Below are positions 7,570 to 30,011 of a stretch of 64,000 bases of DNA, piece by piece (within the stretch, counting starts at the first letter, position 1; each line of letters starts with the position of its first letter). The stretch covers positions 434,001-498,000 of the forward strand of contig CP076324.1 of assembly GCA_018771605.1 (NCBI GenBank). Reading direction: 5' to 3'. Origin of the DNA: Aquificota bacterium. Lineage in GTDB: Bacteria > Aquificota > Aquificia > Aquificales > Aquificaceae. A model generated the notes under the pieces. The model was given only the letters and a program-made list of their open reading frames with translations. It was not told the origin of the DNA and searched no databases. A program made the position numbers and the translations under genes.

Positions 7570-8542
7570 GGACCGTGCGCTTTTGACCTACTACACTTTA
7601 ACTCCTTTGCATATGGGTTCGGGTAGTAGTGTGCATTATGTGGATTTGCCTATCCAAAGGGAGAGGCATACTTCCTTTCCTATAATGGCTGGCAGTGGCA
7701 TAAAGGGTGTTTTTAGGAATTTGGCGGAAAGGAAATTGGATAAGGAAATAGTAGATAAGATATTCGGTCATGAGAAAGCAAGCGAAGAAGCTTCTATGAT
7801 TGCCTTTACAGATGCCAAAATTCTTTTATATCCTGTGCGTAGCTTAAAGGGGACTTTTGCTTGGATTACTTGTCCTTTGGTGCTAAAGAGGTTCAAGGAG
7901 GAGCTAGAAAGCTTGGGTGAAATAAAAAACACAAGCTGGGAAGTGCCAAACCTTGATCCTAATAAAGATAATAAAGCCTTGGTAAGTAATAACTCATCCT
8001 TAATAATTGATGATAAATCTATCGGACTTGAGGAGTTTGTGCTTGAGTGTGAAAAGAGTGAAAATGTGGATAAAATAGCTGAAGTTATAAAGAATTATCT
8101 ACCACAAACAAGCACGGTAAATGAGTTACCGTTATCTAAAAGGTTAGTGGTAGTTGATGATAATATCTTTACAGACTTTGTAAACTATGCAGTGGAGATT
8201 AGGACAAGGATTAGGATAGACCAAGGGACTGGAACGGTGGAAAGGGGTGCGCTCTTTACTGTAGAGTTTGTGCCATCGGAGGCAATTTTTTATAGCTTTG
8301 TGTTTTTTATAGAAAGAAAGGAGGGTGATAGCTCAGACGCAAGGACAAAGTTTGAAAAGCTTTTTAGCTCTGAGGATAAAGATAAAGCAAACAAAAATAA
8401 AGTTGAAAACAAAAAAGTAAAGGAGTTGGTGCTTCAATTTGGTGGAGATGAAACTATAGGGGCCGGTTTTACAAAGGTTAGATATAATGAACTTGTGTGT
8501 GAACGCGGAGAGCATAAAGCTACCACTGGGGGTATTCCTTAA
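7562..8542 (+). CDS. cmr4: Cmr4, Cas7-like backbone subunit and target-RNA endonuclease
   Basis: Cmr4 polymerises along the crRNA and cuts target RNA at 6-nt intervals. Counting from ATG 7562, Asp28 in HYVDLPIQRERHTS is at the position of the catalytic aspartate in this conserved block, followed by MAGSGIKGVFRNLAE. I chose ATG 7562 (326 aa) over an in-frame GTG at 7553 because GGAGGT at 7549-7554 is well spaced only for the ATG. It overlaps cmr3 by 8 bp. It is the last gene of the run; the CRISPR leader follows directly. Confidence 0.92.
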   Translation: MYKDRALLTYYTLTPLHMGSGSSVHYVDLPIQRERHTSFPIMAGSGIKGVFRNLAERKLDKEIVDKIFGHEKASEEASMIAFTDAKILLYPVRSLKGTFAWITCPLVLKRFKEELESLGEIKNTSWEVPNLDPNKDNKALVSNNSSLIIDDKSIGLEEFVLECEKSENVDKIAEVIKNYLPQTSTVNELPLSKRLVVVDDNIFTDFVNYAVEIRTRIRIDQGTGTVERGALFTVEFVPSEAIFYSFVFFIERKEGDSSDARTKFEKLFSSEDKDKANKNKVENKKVKELVLQFGGDETIGAGFTKVRYNELVCERGEHKATTGGIP

Positions 8543-25566: not shown

Positions 25567-25789
25567 AAAAAATAAATGAGACAATACGCCGGGTGAGAAA
25601 TTCGCCCTTTGTAGGGGCAGGTTTTAAACCTGCCAGATTATAAAACATTGGGCGGGTCAAAGACCAGTAGGTTTTTTATTAGTAGTTGCACAGATGCCGT
25701 GCTTCTAAATTTCTTGTCTCATTTATTTTTTTTAACAAAAAGGTATAATGGCATCACCTTTGCCTAATTAATTTCTCACCCAACGTATT
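25567..25789. repeat. Two interleaved inverted repeats with a central palindrome (MITE/REP-like)
   Basis: Pair A is an exact 18-bp inverted repeat: 25567-25584 and 25714-25731. Pair B is an 18/20 inverted repeat: 25583-25602 and 25770-25789. The order A-B-A'-B' is interleaved. Between them, 25616-25634 is a near-perfect palindrome (GGCAGGTTTTAAACCTGCC). Together they fill most of the gap before leuS. It is probably a mosaic of small mobile repeats; a structured 5' RNA is the alternative. Confidence 0.6.
25744..25749 (+). promoter_or_regulatory. Candidate -10 box for leuS
   Basis: A consensus TATAAT lies 54-77 bp before the two possible leuS start codons, between the right arms of the inverted repeats. 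No good -35 stands at 17 bp. If used, the promoter was probably supplied or moved by the repeat element. Confidence 0.4.
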
Positions 25790-25820
25790 ACTTGGTGTTT
25801 TAATGGTTATAATAAAACTC

Positions 25821-27632
25821 ATGGAATACAAGCCTCAAGATATAGAAGCCAAGTGGCAAAGGACTTGGGAAGAGCAAGGGCTTTTCAAAGCAAAGGAAGA
25901 GGGAAAAAAGATTTATGTTCTTGAGATGTTCCCTTATCCATCTGGCCGTATTCATATGGGCCACGTGAGGAACTACACCATAGGCGATGCCATAGCCAGG
26001 TTTTTGAGGTTTAAGGGCTATTCAGTTTTGCATCCCATGGGCTGGGATGCCTTTGGCCTTCCGGCAGAAAACGCAGCCATAAAACATGGAGTGCATCCTG
26101 CAGACTGGACCTACGAAAACATAGCCTATATGAAAAGACAGCTAAAAAGCCTTGGCTTTTCCTACGATTGGGACAGGGAGATAGCCACATGCGACCCAGA
26201 ATACTACAAGTGGAACCAGTGGATCTTTTTAAAGTTCCTTGAGCATGGCCTTGCCTACAGGAAGTCTGCGGAGGTAAATTGGTGCCCAAACGATGAGACG
26301 GTGCTTGCCAACGAGCAGGTAATAGATGGAAGATGCTGGAGGTGTGGAACTCCCATAGTAAGAAAGGAAGTGCCCTCTTGGTATTTAAAGATTACCGCCT
26401 ACGCGGAAAGACTTTTGGAGGACCTAAAGGAGCTGGAAGGTAAGTGGCCCGAAAGGGTAATAGCCCAGCAGAAAAACTGGATAGGAAGGTCGGAAGGTGC
26501 CCTTCTTAAGTTCTTTGTGGAAGACACAGCCATAGAGGTCTTTACCACAAGGCCAGATACAGTCTTTGGTGCCACCTTTGTGGTCCTGGCCCCAGAACAT
26601 CCTTTGACCCTAAAACTGGCAAAAAGCCCAGAGGTGAAGGCTTTTGTAGAAAGGATGAAGCAAAAGTCCACAAGGGAGAGAGGGATAGAGGAGGAGAAGG
26701 AAGGAGTCTTTTTAGGCGTTTATGCGGTAAACCCAGCCACTGGAGAGAAGATACCCGTATGGACGGCCAACTACGTGCTTTATGAGTATGGTACCGGCGC
26801 CATTATGTGCGTGCCAGCCCATGACCAGAGGGACTACGAGTTTGCCATAAAGTATGGCCTTCCCATAAAACAGGTTATAAAGCCCTACCAGGGAGAGGCA
26901 CCAAAGGACAGGGCCTATGAGGACCCGGGCATTCTAATAAACTCAGCCCAGTTTAGCGGTATGGACTCCACAGAGGCAAAAAAAGCTATTACCCAGTGGC
27001 TAAAGGATAAGGGCTTAGGCGATTTTAAGATAACCTACAGGCTAAGGGACTGGAACATATCAAGGCAAAGATATTGGGGCACACCCATTCCAGTGGTCTA
27101 CTGCGACCACTGCGGCATTGTGCCGGTGCCAGAGGGCCAGCTTCCTGTGATGCTCCCCTATAAGGTGGAGATAACGGGCCATGGAAACCCATTGGAAAAG
27201 GTGCCCGACTTTGTCCATACCACATGCCCCAAGTGTGGAAGGCCTGCAAAAAGAGAAACGGATACCATGGACACCTTCTTTGACTCCAGCTGGTACTTTT
27301 TGAGGTTCTGCGACCCAAAAAACGCACAAAGACCCTTTGACCCAGAAAGGGTGGAGTTTTGGATGCCCGTGGACCTCTACATAGGCGGTATAGAGCATGC
27401 GGTCCTGCACCTTCTTTATGCACGCTTTTTCCAAAAGTTCCTCTACGACCTTGGACTTGTAAAGGACAAGGAGCCTTTCCTAAGGCTTATAACCCAAGGC
27501 ATGGTCCTCAAAAGATGGGTAAGCATAGAAAGGTTTTTAAAATACTTAGAAGAAAAATACGGCGTGGAAAACCTTGAGGAAAGAGAACTGGAGGAGCTTG
27601 TGGAGCTTATAAAAAGGGATATGAAAGGGTAG
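25821..27632 (+). CDS. leuS: Leucyl-tRNA synthetase alpha subunit (split enzyme)
   Basis: Charges tRNA(Leu) with leucine. Residues near 40-55 hold the HIGH-type motif ([15 protein letters not shown]); the CP1 editing domain includes [14 protein letters not shown]; zinc-type cysteines and [16 protein letters not shown] follow. The protein ends about 600 residues in, after [10 protein letters not shown], before any KMSKS motif. In Aquifex the enzyme is naturally split into alpha and beta polypeptides, with KMSKS and anticodon-binding parts in beta, so this is the alpha subunit and not a broken gene. ATG 25821 fits the family start; ATG 25803 is in frame. Neither has a clear ribosome binding site. 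Confidence 0.93.
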
Positions 27633-27637
27633 AAAAG

Positions 27638-27651
27638 GGCCCGGGAGGGCC
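27638..27651 (+). terminator. Short GC hairpin after leuS
   Basis: GGCCC, loop GGGA, GGGCC directly after the leuS stop and followed by GGGGTTTAAAA. The stem is short and the T-run weak, so it is only a candidate terminator between converging leuS and the lipoprotein gene. Confidence 0.35.
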
Positions 27652-27672
27652 GGGGTTTAAAAATAGAAAGTG

Positions 27673-28734
27673 CTAAAGCCCAATTATAATTACGCTAACG
27701 CTTACCTTACTTTGATTATTTGCGTTGTTGGCATCTTGGCCTATTATTTCCACGGTGTACCCAGTGAGTAGTAATTGAAGTCCGCTTGGCTGAATGGTAG
27801 CTGTGGTAGACTGTCCACAATTTAAGGTAGTCTGAACAAAGCTAACAGTTATATCTGACGTAAGAAGACCTATAGGATCTTTTACTTGGTAGCTTAGATT
27901 AACAGGATTATTAAAGCCCTGGCTACACTGTAAGCTTACAGTGACATTGGCAGGAGTATAAATTCCTAAAACTTTAAGCAACGTTACAGATGTAGGGTTA
28001 GCCATTAAATTAAAGCTACCACTACTGGTGGAAGTATTAAAGCTTGCGGAGCATGTTTTTGAGGAAGTCATATTTACTGTGCATTGTGAGTCCGTACCAC
28101 AATATAGACAATCTCCTGCCCATCCTGCAAAGGTAGAACCACTATCTGGTGTGGCTATAAGAACCACAGATGTATTTGTGTTAAACTGTGCAGAGCAAGT
28201 GTTTCCACAATTTATTCCGGGAGGATTGCTAACAACAGCACCAGAGCCGGTGCCTGCTTTAATAACGGTAAGTGTGGCTGTTTGACTTCCACCACCAGAA
28301 CCTCCGCCGCTGCCAGAAGCCTGTACATTCAAATTAAAAGAAACCCTATGAGTTATATTACCAGAAGTAGCTTTAAGAGTTGCTTGATAAAAACCAGGTT
28401 GGGTGTTAGGGTCTGCAAAAATCGTGATCACATACAGATATACTCCACCCAACAACTTACTTGGGTCTGGTAGAAAAATTTTACTTGTAATTAAGACTAC
28501 ACCAGGAGGAACACCATCCAGGCTAAGATTGACTTCTCCAGAAAAGCCAAACAAAGGCTCTGCCTGTAAGCTTAAATAAGCTTGACTCCCTCTAACTATG
28601 GTTATATCCTTTTGTAGCAGTGCAATTTTAAAATCTGGGCTTGGAGAGCCTCCACCACCGCAGGAACTCAAAAAGGCTCCCAAGACTAAGATAAAGAGAG
28701 CTATGAAGAGCCTAAGACTAAAAGCCTTTCTCAT
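27673..28734 (-). CDS. Surface lipoprotein with an InlB B-repeat-like domain
   Basis: 353 aa. The signal peptide ends in a lipobox (LSSC, Cys25) followed by a GGGG spacer, so the protein should be lipid-anchored. A first beta-rich domain runs to about residue 140, then a linker GSGGGSGGGS, then a repeat domain (LTVIKAGTGSGAVVSNPPG ... FAGWAGDC ... CSASFN) of the divergent InlB B-repeat type with six cysteines, and a C-terminal beta domain. Family members are extracellular; the function is unknown. GGGAGGT precedes the ATG. Upstream lies a 19-bp inverted repeat that may make expression switchable. Confidence 0.75.
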   Translation of the reverse strand: MRKAFSLRLFIALFILVLGAFLSSCGGGGSPSPDFKIALLQKDITIVRGSQAYLSLQAEPLFGFSGEVNLSLDGVPPGVVLITSKIFLPDPSKLLGGVYLYVITIFADPNTQPGFYQATLKATSGNITHRVSFNLNVQASGSGGGSGGGSQTATLTVIKAGTGSGAVVSNPPGINCGNTCSAQFNTNTSVVLIATPDSGSTFAGWAGDCLYCGTDSQCTVNMTSSKTCSASFNTSTSSGSFNLMANPTSVTLLKVLGIYTPANVTVSLQCSQGFNNPVNLSYQVKDPIGLLTSDITVSFVQTTLNCGQSTTATIQPSGLQLLLTGYTVEIIGQDANNANNQSKVSVSVIIIGL

Positions 28735-28755
28735 GGTTCTACCTCCCGCAGTTAA

Positions 28756-29023
28756 TTTAATTGCCTTTATATTAGCAACTGGTTTTGGCGCACAAGTCCC
28801 AGGGTGACTATTTACAACAGCCTGAATAGAGTATGATTTTCCGTGGACCTTCTGAATACCAATAAGGCTTCTTTTAAAAGCGGATCCACGGAACGATACA
28901 TGAGATCTTGTACGATTTTTAGAATGTATGCTTTTACATGTTTTAGGAGTGTAGTTTGATTGAAATCATATTACATGCCTATTGACAATTTATTAAAAAT
29001 GTATTAATATAAAGGCAATTAAA
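28756..29023. repeat. 268-bp element with 19-bp perfect terminal inverted repeats; candidate invertible promoter
   Basis: TTTAATTGCCTTTATATTA (28756-28774) is exactly reverse-complemented at 29005-29023. The 230 bp between hold no gene, an inner 9-bp inverted repeat TTCCGTGGA/TCCACGGAA (28839-28847, 28885-28893), and a TTGACA at 28982-28987. The arms carry TAATAT as an outward-facing -10 box. It lies directly upstream of the lipoprotein ribosome binding site. No recombinase is visible nearby. A small non-autonomous transposon is the main alternative. Confidence 0.65.
28982..29010 (+). promoter_or_regulatory. Strong rightward promoter inside the inverted-repeat element
   Basis: TTGACA (28982-28987), 17-bp spacer, TAATAT (29005-29010, inside the right repeat arm). 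It points away from the lipoprotein gene into the 3' end of the minus-strand membrane-protein gene, with no plus-strand gene downstream. Inversion of the segment would place the same promoter in front of the lipoprotein gene. Confidence 0.6.
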
Positions 29024-29033
29024 CATACATCCT

Positions 29034-30011
29034 TTACACAATCATAGCAGGGTATTCTTCCTTCCTCAGAGAAAATACCAACACATAAAGGCTTAAAAAT
29101 ATGGCTGTGAGCTGGAAGGCCCAGAAGCTAAGGAGTTTAAGGTAGGCAAAGTAGTGGCTAAATAAGATTAAAAGACTTGATAGATTGTCCAAAAAGGAAA
29201 AAAGAAAGACAGAAAAACCTAAAGTTATAGCCCTTTTCTTTTTAAAGCCTGCAAAGGGTAAAAGGTGAGCAAGGATAAGGGAAAAAAGGGCCATAGTCAA
29301 AAGGTGCGGATAAAAAACCTTAAAAACACCTTGAAAGGTCTTTGGTTTTATAAAAAGGGAAGGATTTCCAAGGTAGTAATCCTTTATGCCCTCTATACCA
29401 AAGCCCATCTTGGAAAAGAAGTTTAAAAAGTTGGAAAGGAGAAAGAGAAGAAAAAATAGGGAAAATAAAAAGGTAAAATACCTTAAGGCCTTGGTTTTTG
29501 GTGGCCTGGCATCTTTAAGGATAAGACAGTAGAGGTTGTAAAGGATTACAAAAAGTAAAAGCAATTGATAAACTATAAAGCTAAAAAGCTTTAACCACAA
29601 AAGAATTGGCCATTCAAGGAAGAATATAAGAAGGTCTGCACCTATGTAAAAAAGGGCAAAAAGGTTGGAAGAGAGAATTATAAAAAGCTTGAAGTTTTGA
29701 TTTTGTCCAAAGAGGTTAAAGATGGAAAGGAGTGTGAGTAGCATAAGGCCGTGTAAGAAGAGGTTTATGTGTATATCCTCTGATATCTGGGCTATGGATA
29801 TCTTCTGAGGAAACTCTAGGTCCATAAAGTAATACTTAAAGAGGCTCTCATAGGAAAAGCCATACTTGCCATAAAAGCTTATCCAAGAGGCAATCCAAAA
29901 AAGAAGGGAAAAAATCAAAAAGGCAAGCACCGCATAGTAGAGGGCTTTGTTCCTCTTTATATCGGCGGAGATAAAGAACCTCACCTTTGGCCTCCGAAAA
30001 GCACCTGCCAC
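29034..30011 (-). CDS. Eight-helix membrane protein with internal duplication, flavin-module partner
   Basis: 325 aa, about eight hydrophobic helices. Two halves look alike: FSYESLFKYYFMDLEFPQK with HINLFLHGLMLLTLLSIF, and FGIEGIKDYYLGNPSLFIKP with YPHLLTMALFSLILAHLLPF. Each half therefore has a short extracytoplasmic YY...P...K segment and a His-bearing helix, suggesting possible heme or quinone contact (inference). I do not recognise a named family. It overlaps the FMN-binding protein gene by 31 bp and ends a porin-FMN-membrane gene run, so it may exchange electrons with the flavoprotein. Confidence 0.65.
   Translation of the reverse strand: MAGAFRRPKVRFFISADIKRNKALYYAVLAFLIFSLLFWIASWISFYGKYGFSYESLFKYYFMDLEFPQKISIAQISEDIHINLFLHGLMLLTLLSIFNLFGQNQNFKLFIILSSNLFALFYIGADLLIFFLEWPILLWLKLFSFIVYQLLLLFVILYNLYCLILKDARPPKTKALRYFTFLFSLFFLLFLLSNFLNFFSKMGFGIEGIKDYYLGNPSLFIKPKTFQGVFKVFYPHLLTMALFSLILAHLLPFAGFKKKRAITLGFSVFLFSFLDNLSSLLILFSHYFAYLKLLSFWAFQLTAIFLSLYVLVFSLRKEEYPAMIV

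Follow-up and report, generated by a model that had tools for sequence, protein, structure and literature searches.

The lipoprotein locus

The window, i.e. the whole stretch of DNA analyzed, comprises 64,000 nt (C1:434001-498000) of the one-contig, 1,722,082-bp genome of an Aquificota bacterium. Within it, a lipoprotein gene and a gene-free segment stand between leuS-alpha (25803-27632) and a membrane gene (29034-30011). The split leuS agrees with a placement of the genome in the Aquificales. Almost every relative of the genus with a match has these flanking genes convergent, their ends within ~20 bp of each other; one relative, L054, has other genes downstream. Relative to this gene order, the lipoprotein gene and the segment are an insertion. 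The features of the locus, in window coordinates, are as follows.

27633-29033 (approximate): insertion of ~1.4 kb, from leuS-alpha to the membrane gene, delimited by the gene order of relatives
27673-28734, minus strand: gene for an accessory lipoprotein of 353 aa, with the lipobox LSSCGG and an InlB-like repeat domain (PF18998); presumed target
28756-28774, minus strand: left arm of a perfect 19-bp inverted repeat, the core shared by both sites described below (arms compared)
28775-29004, no strand: 230-bp segment between the arms, gene-free in six-frame translation, which would be inverted
28839-28849 and 28882-28893, no strand: inner imperfect inverted repeat, TTCCGTGGA-CC and GGATCCACGGAA, read from the sequence and paired in the predicted fold
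29005-29023, plus strand: right arm of the perfect 19-bp inverted repeat (arms compared)

No full-length orthologue of the lipoprotein was found in 40 relatives, with which mainly the InlB-like repeat domain is common, and so orthologues could not be called as witnesses of the other orientation. Nor do these 40 relatives contain anything resembling the segment. Upstream lies an operon on the strand of the lipoprotein gene, its last gene ending ~10 bp short of the segment, and read-through from this operon may transcribe the lipoprotein gene.

A single-copy inverted repeat

An earlier note on this DNA had reported a perfect 19-bp inverted repeat enclosing 230 bp without genes. The arms are indeed complementary at 19 of 19 positions, and no protein-length frame crosses the spacer. 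Repeats were ranked, and other sites scored with the PWM discussed below, on sampled stretches totalling 438 kb; copy counts and the dif model cover the whole genome. In the 438 kb, this is the longest perfect inverted repeat with arms 20-1500 bp apart, and 10 Markov-shuffled sets of the same sequence yielded at most 17 bp. The runners-up, at 18 bp, all come from a separate, multi-copy family of MITE-like elements. Members of that family are ~165 bp long with 18-bp terminal inverted repeats (AAAATAAATGAGACAA...). One lies in the window at 25567-25731, upstream of leuS-alpha, another at L082 3504-3668, and some 20 longer copies, together with fragments, elsewhere in the genome.

Could the segment be what remains of a transposon, either a MITE or an insertion sequence in decay, with the arms as its terminal inverted repeats and a promoter directed outward from one end? 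A gene-free element of 268 bp with 19-bp terminal repeats has that form, and the genome harbors the abundant MITE-like family just described. No target-site duplication flanks the arms, but one of TTAA or TA could hide inside the palindromic ends. The earlier note had held that many scattered copies of the element with target-site duplications would make it a plain MITE. A search with the 300 bp around the segment finds one copy in the 1.72-Mb genome, which disposes of the MITE on copy number, and single copy together with absence from the 40 relatives means that the repeat represents no MITE family. Allowing three mismatches, the arm matches four places: the two arms themselves, the chromosomal dif and one weak, 3-mismatch site. 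Thus no other element in the genome shares these ends. Exact-arm scans of the species genomes returned 11 scattered contigs, each with a single match and none with a second arm, and of viral contigs one match, again a single arm. We regard a transposon relic as quite unlikely.

As a single strand, the segment folds better than shuffled sequence (z = -4.2). Together with the upstream operon ending so close by on the same strand, this could point to a regulatory repeat that undergoes no recombination, the arms being paired operators or an RNA hairpin between operon and lipoprotein gene. The fold consists mostly of the 19-bp arms themselves, however, and neither operator nor hairpin predicts what is described next, a likeness to dif that extends over the centre and both half-sites; we consider this explanation very unlikely. 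The inner imperfect repeat is off-centre within the segment, and possibly an accessory-factor site.

The arms as dif-like sites

When the order was searched with the arm, one related sequence kept recurring, TAATATAATGGCAATTATA, which precedes an HTH gene and a gene for a tyrosine recombinase. On extension it proves to be a palindrome of 11-6-11 layout, TGTTAATATAA-TGGCAA-TTATATTAACA, as dif sites are. The motif of the family is the 28-bp palindrome TGTTAAYATAA-N6-TTATRTTAACA, and its half-site pattern (three mismatches or fewer) occurs about once per genome across the family, including genera in which no xer gene adjoins it. At all same-genus loci examined, dif adjoins an HTH-xer operon; in other genera it is still present, but elsewhere. 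The motif at C1:1099436 accordingly has the marks of a dif: a 28-bp, 11-6-11 palindrome, present about once per chromosome and Xer-associated. The GC skew of 19 sampled stretches was too noisy to place the replication terminus. The sites in this genome are as follows.

28750-28777, minus strand: left dif-like Xer site, TGCTAATATAA-AGGCAA-TTAAATTAACT (dif pattern, model and PWM), with inner half-site 28767-28777, centre 28761-28766 and outer half-site 28750-28760
29002-29029, plus strand: right dif-like Xer site, TATTAATATAA-AGGCAA-TTAAACATACA (dif model and PWM; core identical to the left), with inner half-site 29002-29012, centre 29013-29018 and outer half-site 29019-29029
C1:1099436-1099463: dif of this genome, with no mismatch to the half-site pattern

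Exactly two places in this genome match the half-site pattern with three mismatches or fewer, namely dif and the left arm (C1:462750-462777; three mismatches in 22). A dif model was then built from 29 dif sites, from which the arms were left out and in which this genome's own dif sequence (shared with G008) was included. Run over the whole genome, it has only three matches at E ≤ 10. The best, at 33.5 bits, is dif; the left arm follows with 18.9 bits (E = 0.004) and the right arm with 10.6 (E = 1.8). With a gapless PWM, the left site scores 26.8 bits and the right 16.2, against 7.6 for the best other site in the 438 kb and peaks of 2.8-15.7 bits on 20 shuffles. The left arm is the strongest match in 64 family genomes outside sites that resemble each genome's dif. 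True dif sites of the genus share two of its deviations from the consensus (AGCTAATATAA in G010 and TTAAATTAACA in G011).

The right site is not significant alone (E = 1.8), and its outer half-site agrees with dif at 7 of 11 positions; its candidacy as an Xer site comes from being the perfect inverted partner of the left arm, not from its own score. Inner half-sites are better conserved (10/11 each) than outer ones (9/11 left, 7/11 right). The two sites are inverted relative to each other, with an identical 6-bp centre, AGGCAA, and their likeness to dif runs well past the edges of the repeat (e.g. TTAAC in the left flank), something that a transposon end would leave unexplained. A fortuitous repeat and a fortuitous resemblance to dif are scarcely credible together: the region is A+T-rich and shuffled sequence does produce inverted repeats, but 19 bp exceeds them all, the left-arm score is expected by chance some 0.001-0.01 times per genome, and the two coincide at one place. 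From their sequence, the arms are very probably dif-like Xer sites.

Other dif-like sites came to light in the lineage. An exact dif consensus stands at 8092-8119 of phage contig L202 (IMGVR_UViG_3300021973_000005), whose genes include those for terminase and portal; this suggests that a virus of the lineage exploits Xer, or else integration at dif. Another species of the genus, G004, has a second dif-like site (L188 2340-2367) on a 7-kb contig (contig 38) with a DNA methyltransferase gene, and no partner was found on that contig. G015 has a weak second site.

The candidate recombinase

The earlier note had seen no recombinase gene in the window. Outside it, the genome has two genes of the resolvase family and one of the phage-integrase family. 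The former two are transposases of the IS607 type, with scores above the NCBIfam cut-off, which removes them as candidates for a dedicated serine invertase. One (L065 1321-3357) has a tnpB-like gene beside it; the other (L066 1453-2088) does not. The sole phage-integrase-family gene, 287 aa (~C1:1097845-1098708), encodes a tyrosine recombinase. Among solved structures its best relative is 4a8e, which is archaeal and XerA-like, and the alignment with it retains R, K, HxxR, H and Y. Since it scores below the NCBIfam cut-offs for XerC, XerD, XerA and XerS, we call it no more than ‘Xer-type’.

The gene sits behind a 210-aa HTH gene whose start is ~80 bp from dif. This single locus of dif, HTH gene and lone Xer-type gene (C1:1097845-1099463; L067 and L190) recurs throughout the genus (L169-L187), and is possibly an undescribed single-recombinase Xer arrangement. 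The 6-bp dif centre is asymmetric, and among species of the genus it faces either direction with respect to the HTH-xer operon (L176-L187 and L131-L136). In this genome the dif centre is TAGCAA, two positions different from the AGGCAA of the arms; the spacer rule would then predict that each arm recombines with the other in preference to dif. It may count against inversion by Xer that a bacterial Xer may need FtsK or another partner; Pyrococcus XerA recombines dif in vitro without partner proteins (PMC2958812).

The promoter-like sequences

Two promoter-like sequences share their -10 hexamers with the arms.

28982-29010, plus strand: TTGACA-17-TAATAT (10/12 match), which points away from the lipoprotein gene as sequenced and would face it after inversion
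28769-28797, minus strand: ACTTGT-17-TAATAT, a poor promoter-like sequence that faces the lipoprotein gene now (read from the sequence)

Their spacings are as first described: by the right arm, TTGACA (28982-28987) stands exactly 17 bp from TAATAT (29005-29010) on the plus strand, and by the left arm, on the minus strand, ACTTGT stands at 17 bp or TTGTGC at 15 bp. On the side that now faces the gene, the best -35 match at 16-18 bp is 1/6. In a flipped sequence built in silico, TTGACA-17-TAATAT comes to stand ahead of GGGAGG and the ATG of the lipoprotein gene, as had been predicted. Two terms of the earlier note went too far. ‘Near-consensus’ does not fit a promoter whose TAATAT agrees with TATAAT at four of six positions and which therefore totals 10/12; and ‘OFF’ is too strong for a state in which read-through may occur and the gene already has a weak promoter-like site pointing at it. 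The region shows no enrichment for promoter-like sites (8 against an expected 5.7), and the -10-like TAATAT may merely reflect the composition of an Xer site. The chance of a 6/6 TTGACA lying 16-18 bp from either arm is ~0.003.

An Xer-dependent invertible promoter?

We propose that the segment is an Xer-dependent invertible promoter element bounded by two ectopic, inverted dif-like sites. The genome's single Xer-type recombinase would pair these sites and invert the DNA between them. As TAATAT lies within each Xer-like site, it would stay put, and inversion would exchange only the hexamer 17 bp upstream of it (ACTTGT now, TTGACA after). One orientation would thus make a good promoter for the accessory lipoprotein gene and the other a poor one, the sequenced orientation being presumably the low state. 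After inversion in silico, the gene-side site scores 26.4 bits and the far site 16.5; with the strong site still by the gene and the weak one still at the far end, the reaction should be reversible.

The 19/19 repeat lies within two dif-like sites, so that inverted recombination sites flank the segment as in known invertible promoters. On paper, the element works as one of these, though it is the only one of its sort known in the genome and the family. The earlier proposal of a promoter switch, which neither linked the repeat to dif nor named a recombinase, has gained a candidate recombinase and firm ground in that the arms are inverted dif-like sites with the same 6-bp centre, the genome's only ones besides dif; the switching itself we infer. 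We put the whole reading, in which recombination, promoter activity and phase-variable expression are all deduced from sequence, at about even odds (~0.5). Of its parts, inversion of the segment by Xer seems rather probable, judging by the sites; that inversion would also switch the lipoprotein gene is, at best, an even prospect. Tentatively, and a little short of even, we suggest that an Aquificales thermophile has co-opted the housekeeping chromosome-dimer Xer/dif system as a phase-variation invertase, through ectopic, inverted dif-like sites with an internal -10 and a -35 that is swapped, to switch an acquired surface lipoprotein.

The most serious rival, a minority possibility in our estimation, is that the paired sites are the debris of an Xer-exploiting mobile element (an IMEX or a dif module) with which the insert arrived. 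The sites would then be relics, inversion might occur to no regulatory purpose, and the promoter would be coincidental. The lipoprotein gene and the segment do form a recent, genome-specific insertion, and the exact dif of the phage contig and the dif-like site of the methyltransferase contig indicate that mobile elements of the lineage probably use Xer. Against this stand the arrangement of the sites (inverted, 222 bp apart, directly before a gene and identical at the centre) and the TTGACA at exact spacing. Moreover, a simple integration event leaves direct repeats at the dif locus itself, whereas this pair is inverted and lies 637 kb from it; no plasmid or phage donor was found to match the insert.

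If the invertible-promoter reading is true, then the segregation recombinase that most bacteria carry is able to operate a gene switch at any place where a pair of inverted dif-like sites arises, and promoter inversion extends to free-living thermophiles. Invertible promoters have mostly been studied in host-associated bacteria with dedicated invertases. Our searches of the open-access literature turned up nothing on inversion-based phase variation in this order, and Aquificales are not named in the main text of the dif surveys and the Xer review consulted. A search rule also follows: genomes can be scanned for a lineage's own dif motif occurring as inverted pairs away from its usual locus.

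Comparison with known systems

Dedicated invertases operate the familiar switches: Mpi and Tsr in Bacteroides, FimB and FimE at fimS of E. coli, and RecV at the flagellar switch of Clostridioides difficile. Like these, the present element has short inverted repeats around a gene-free, putative promoter segment before a surface gene. It differs in that the candidate recombinase is an Xer of the chromosome-dimer type rather than a dedicated invertase, and in that its presumed -10 is internal to the Xer-like site, which would leave the -35 side alone to be swapped.

Closer in enzyme are Mycoplasma agalactiae and Ureaplasma parvum, in which inversion by the Xer-family recombinases Xer1 (vpma) and XerC (mba), respectively, switches surface lipoproteins (PMC2268961, PMC3599477). 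A Xer-family tyrosine recombinase (here a candidate) and a surface lipoprotein as target (here a presumed one) are common to all three. The inversion sites in those organisms are not dif, however, and the putative dif of U. parvum is bound by another recombinase, CodV (PMC2268961, PMC3599477); here the sites resemble the organism's own dif.

With XerH/difH, XerS/difSL and archaeal XerA/dif (PMC5357621, PMC2731167, PMC2958812), this genome shares a single Xer gene and, within the genus, an adjoining dif, and the closest solved relative of its Xer is the archaeal, XerA-like 4a8e. Unlike them, it has a canonical 28-bp site whose centre is 6 bp long, its dif and xer are separated by an HTH gene, and its chromosome carries two additional dif-like sites away from that locus.

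Closest in the form of the sites are the pdif modules of Acinetobacter Rep_3 plasmids, where inversion between inversely oriented sites with identical spacers has been shown experimentally, and where the host Xer acts (PMC13141974, PMC9947245). The present pair has the same inverted 11-6-11 form and identical 6-bp spacers, with a poor right outer half-site (7/11). In contrast to those plasmid-borne, gene-carrying modules, in which C and D alternate, it is chromosomal, isolated and gene-free, in a genome with a single Xer-type recombinase, and has a promoter-like sequence at its edge.
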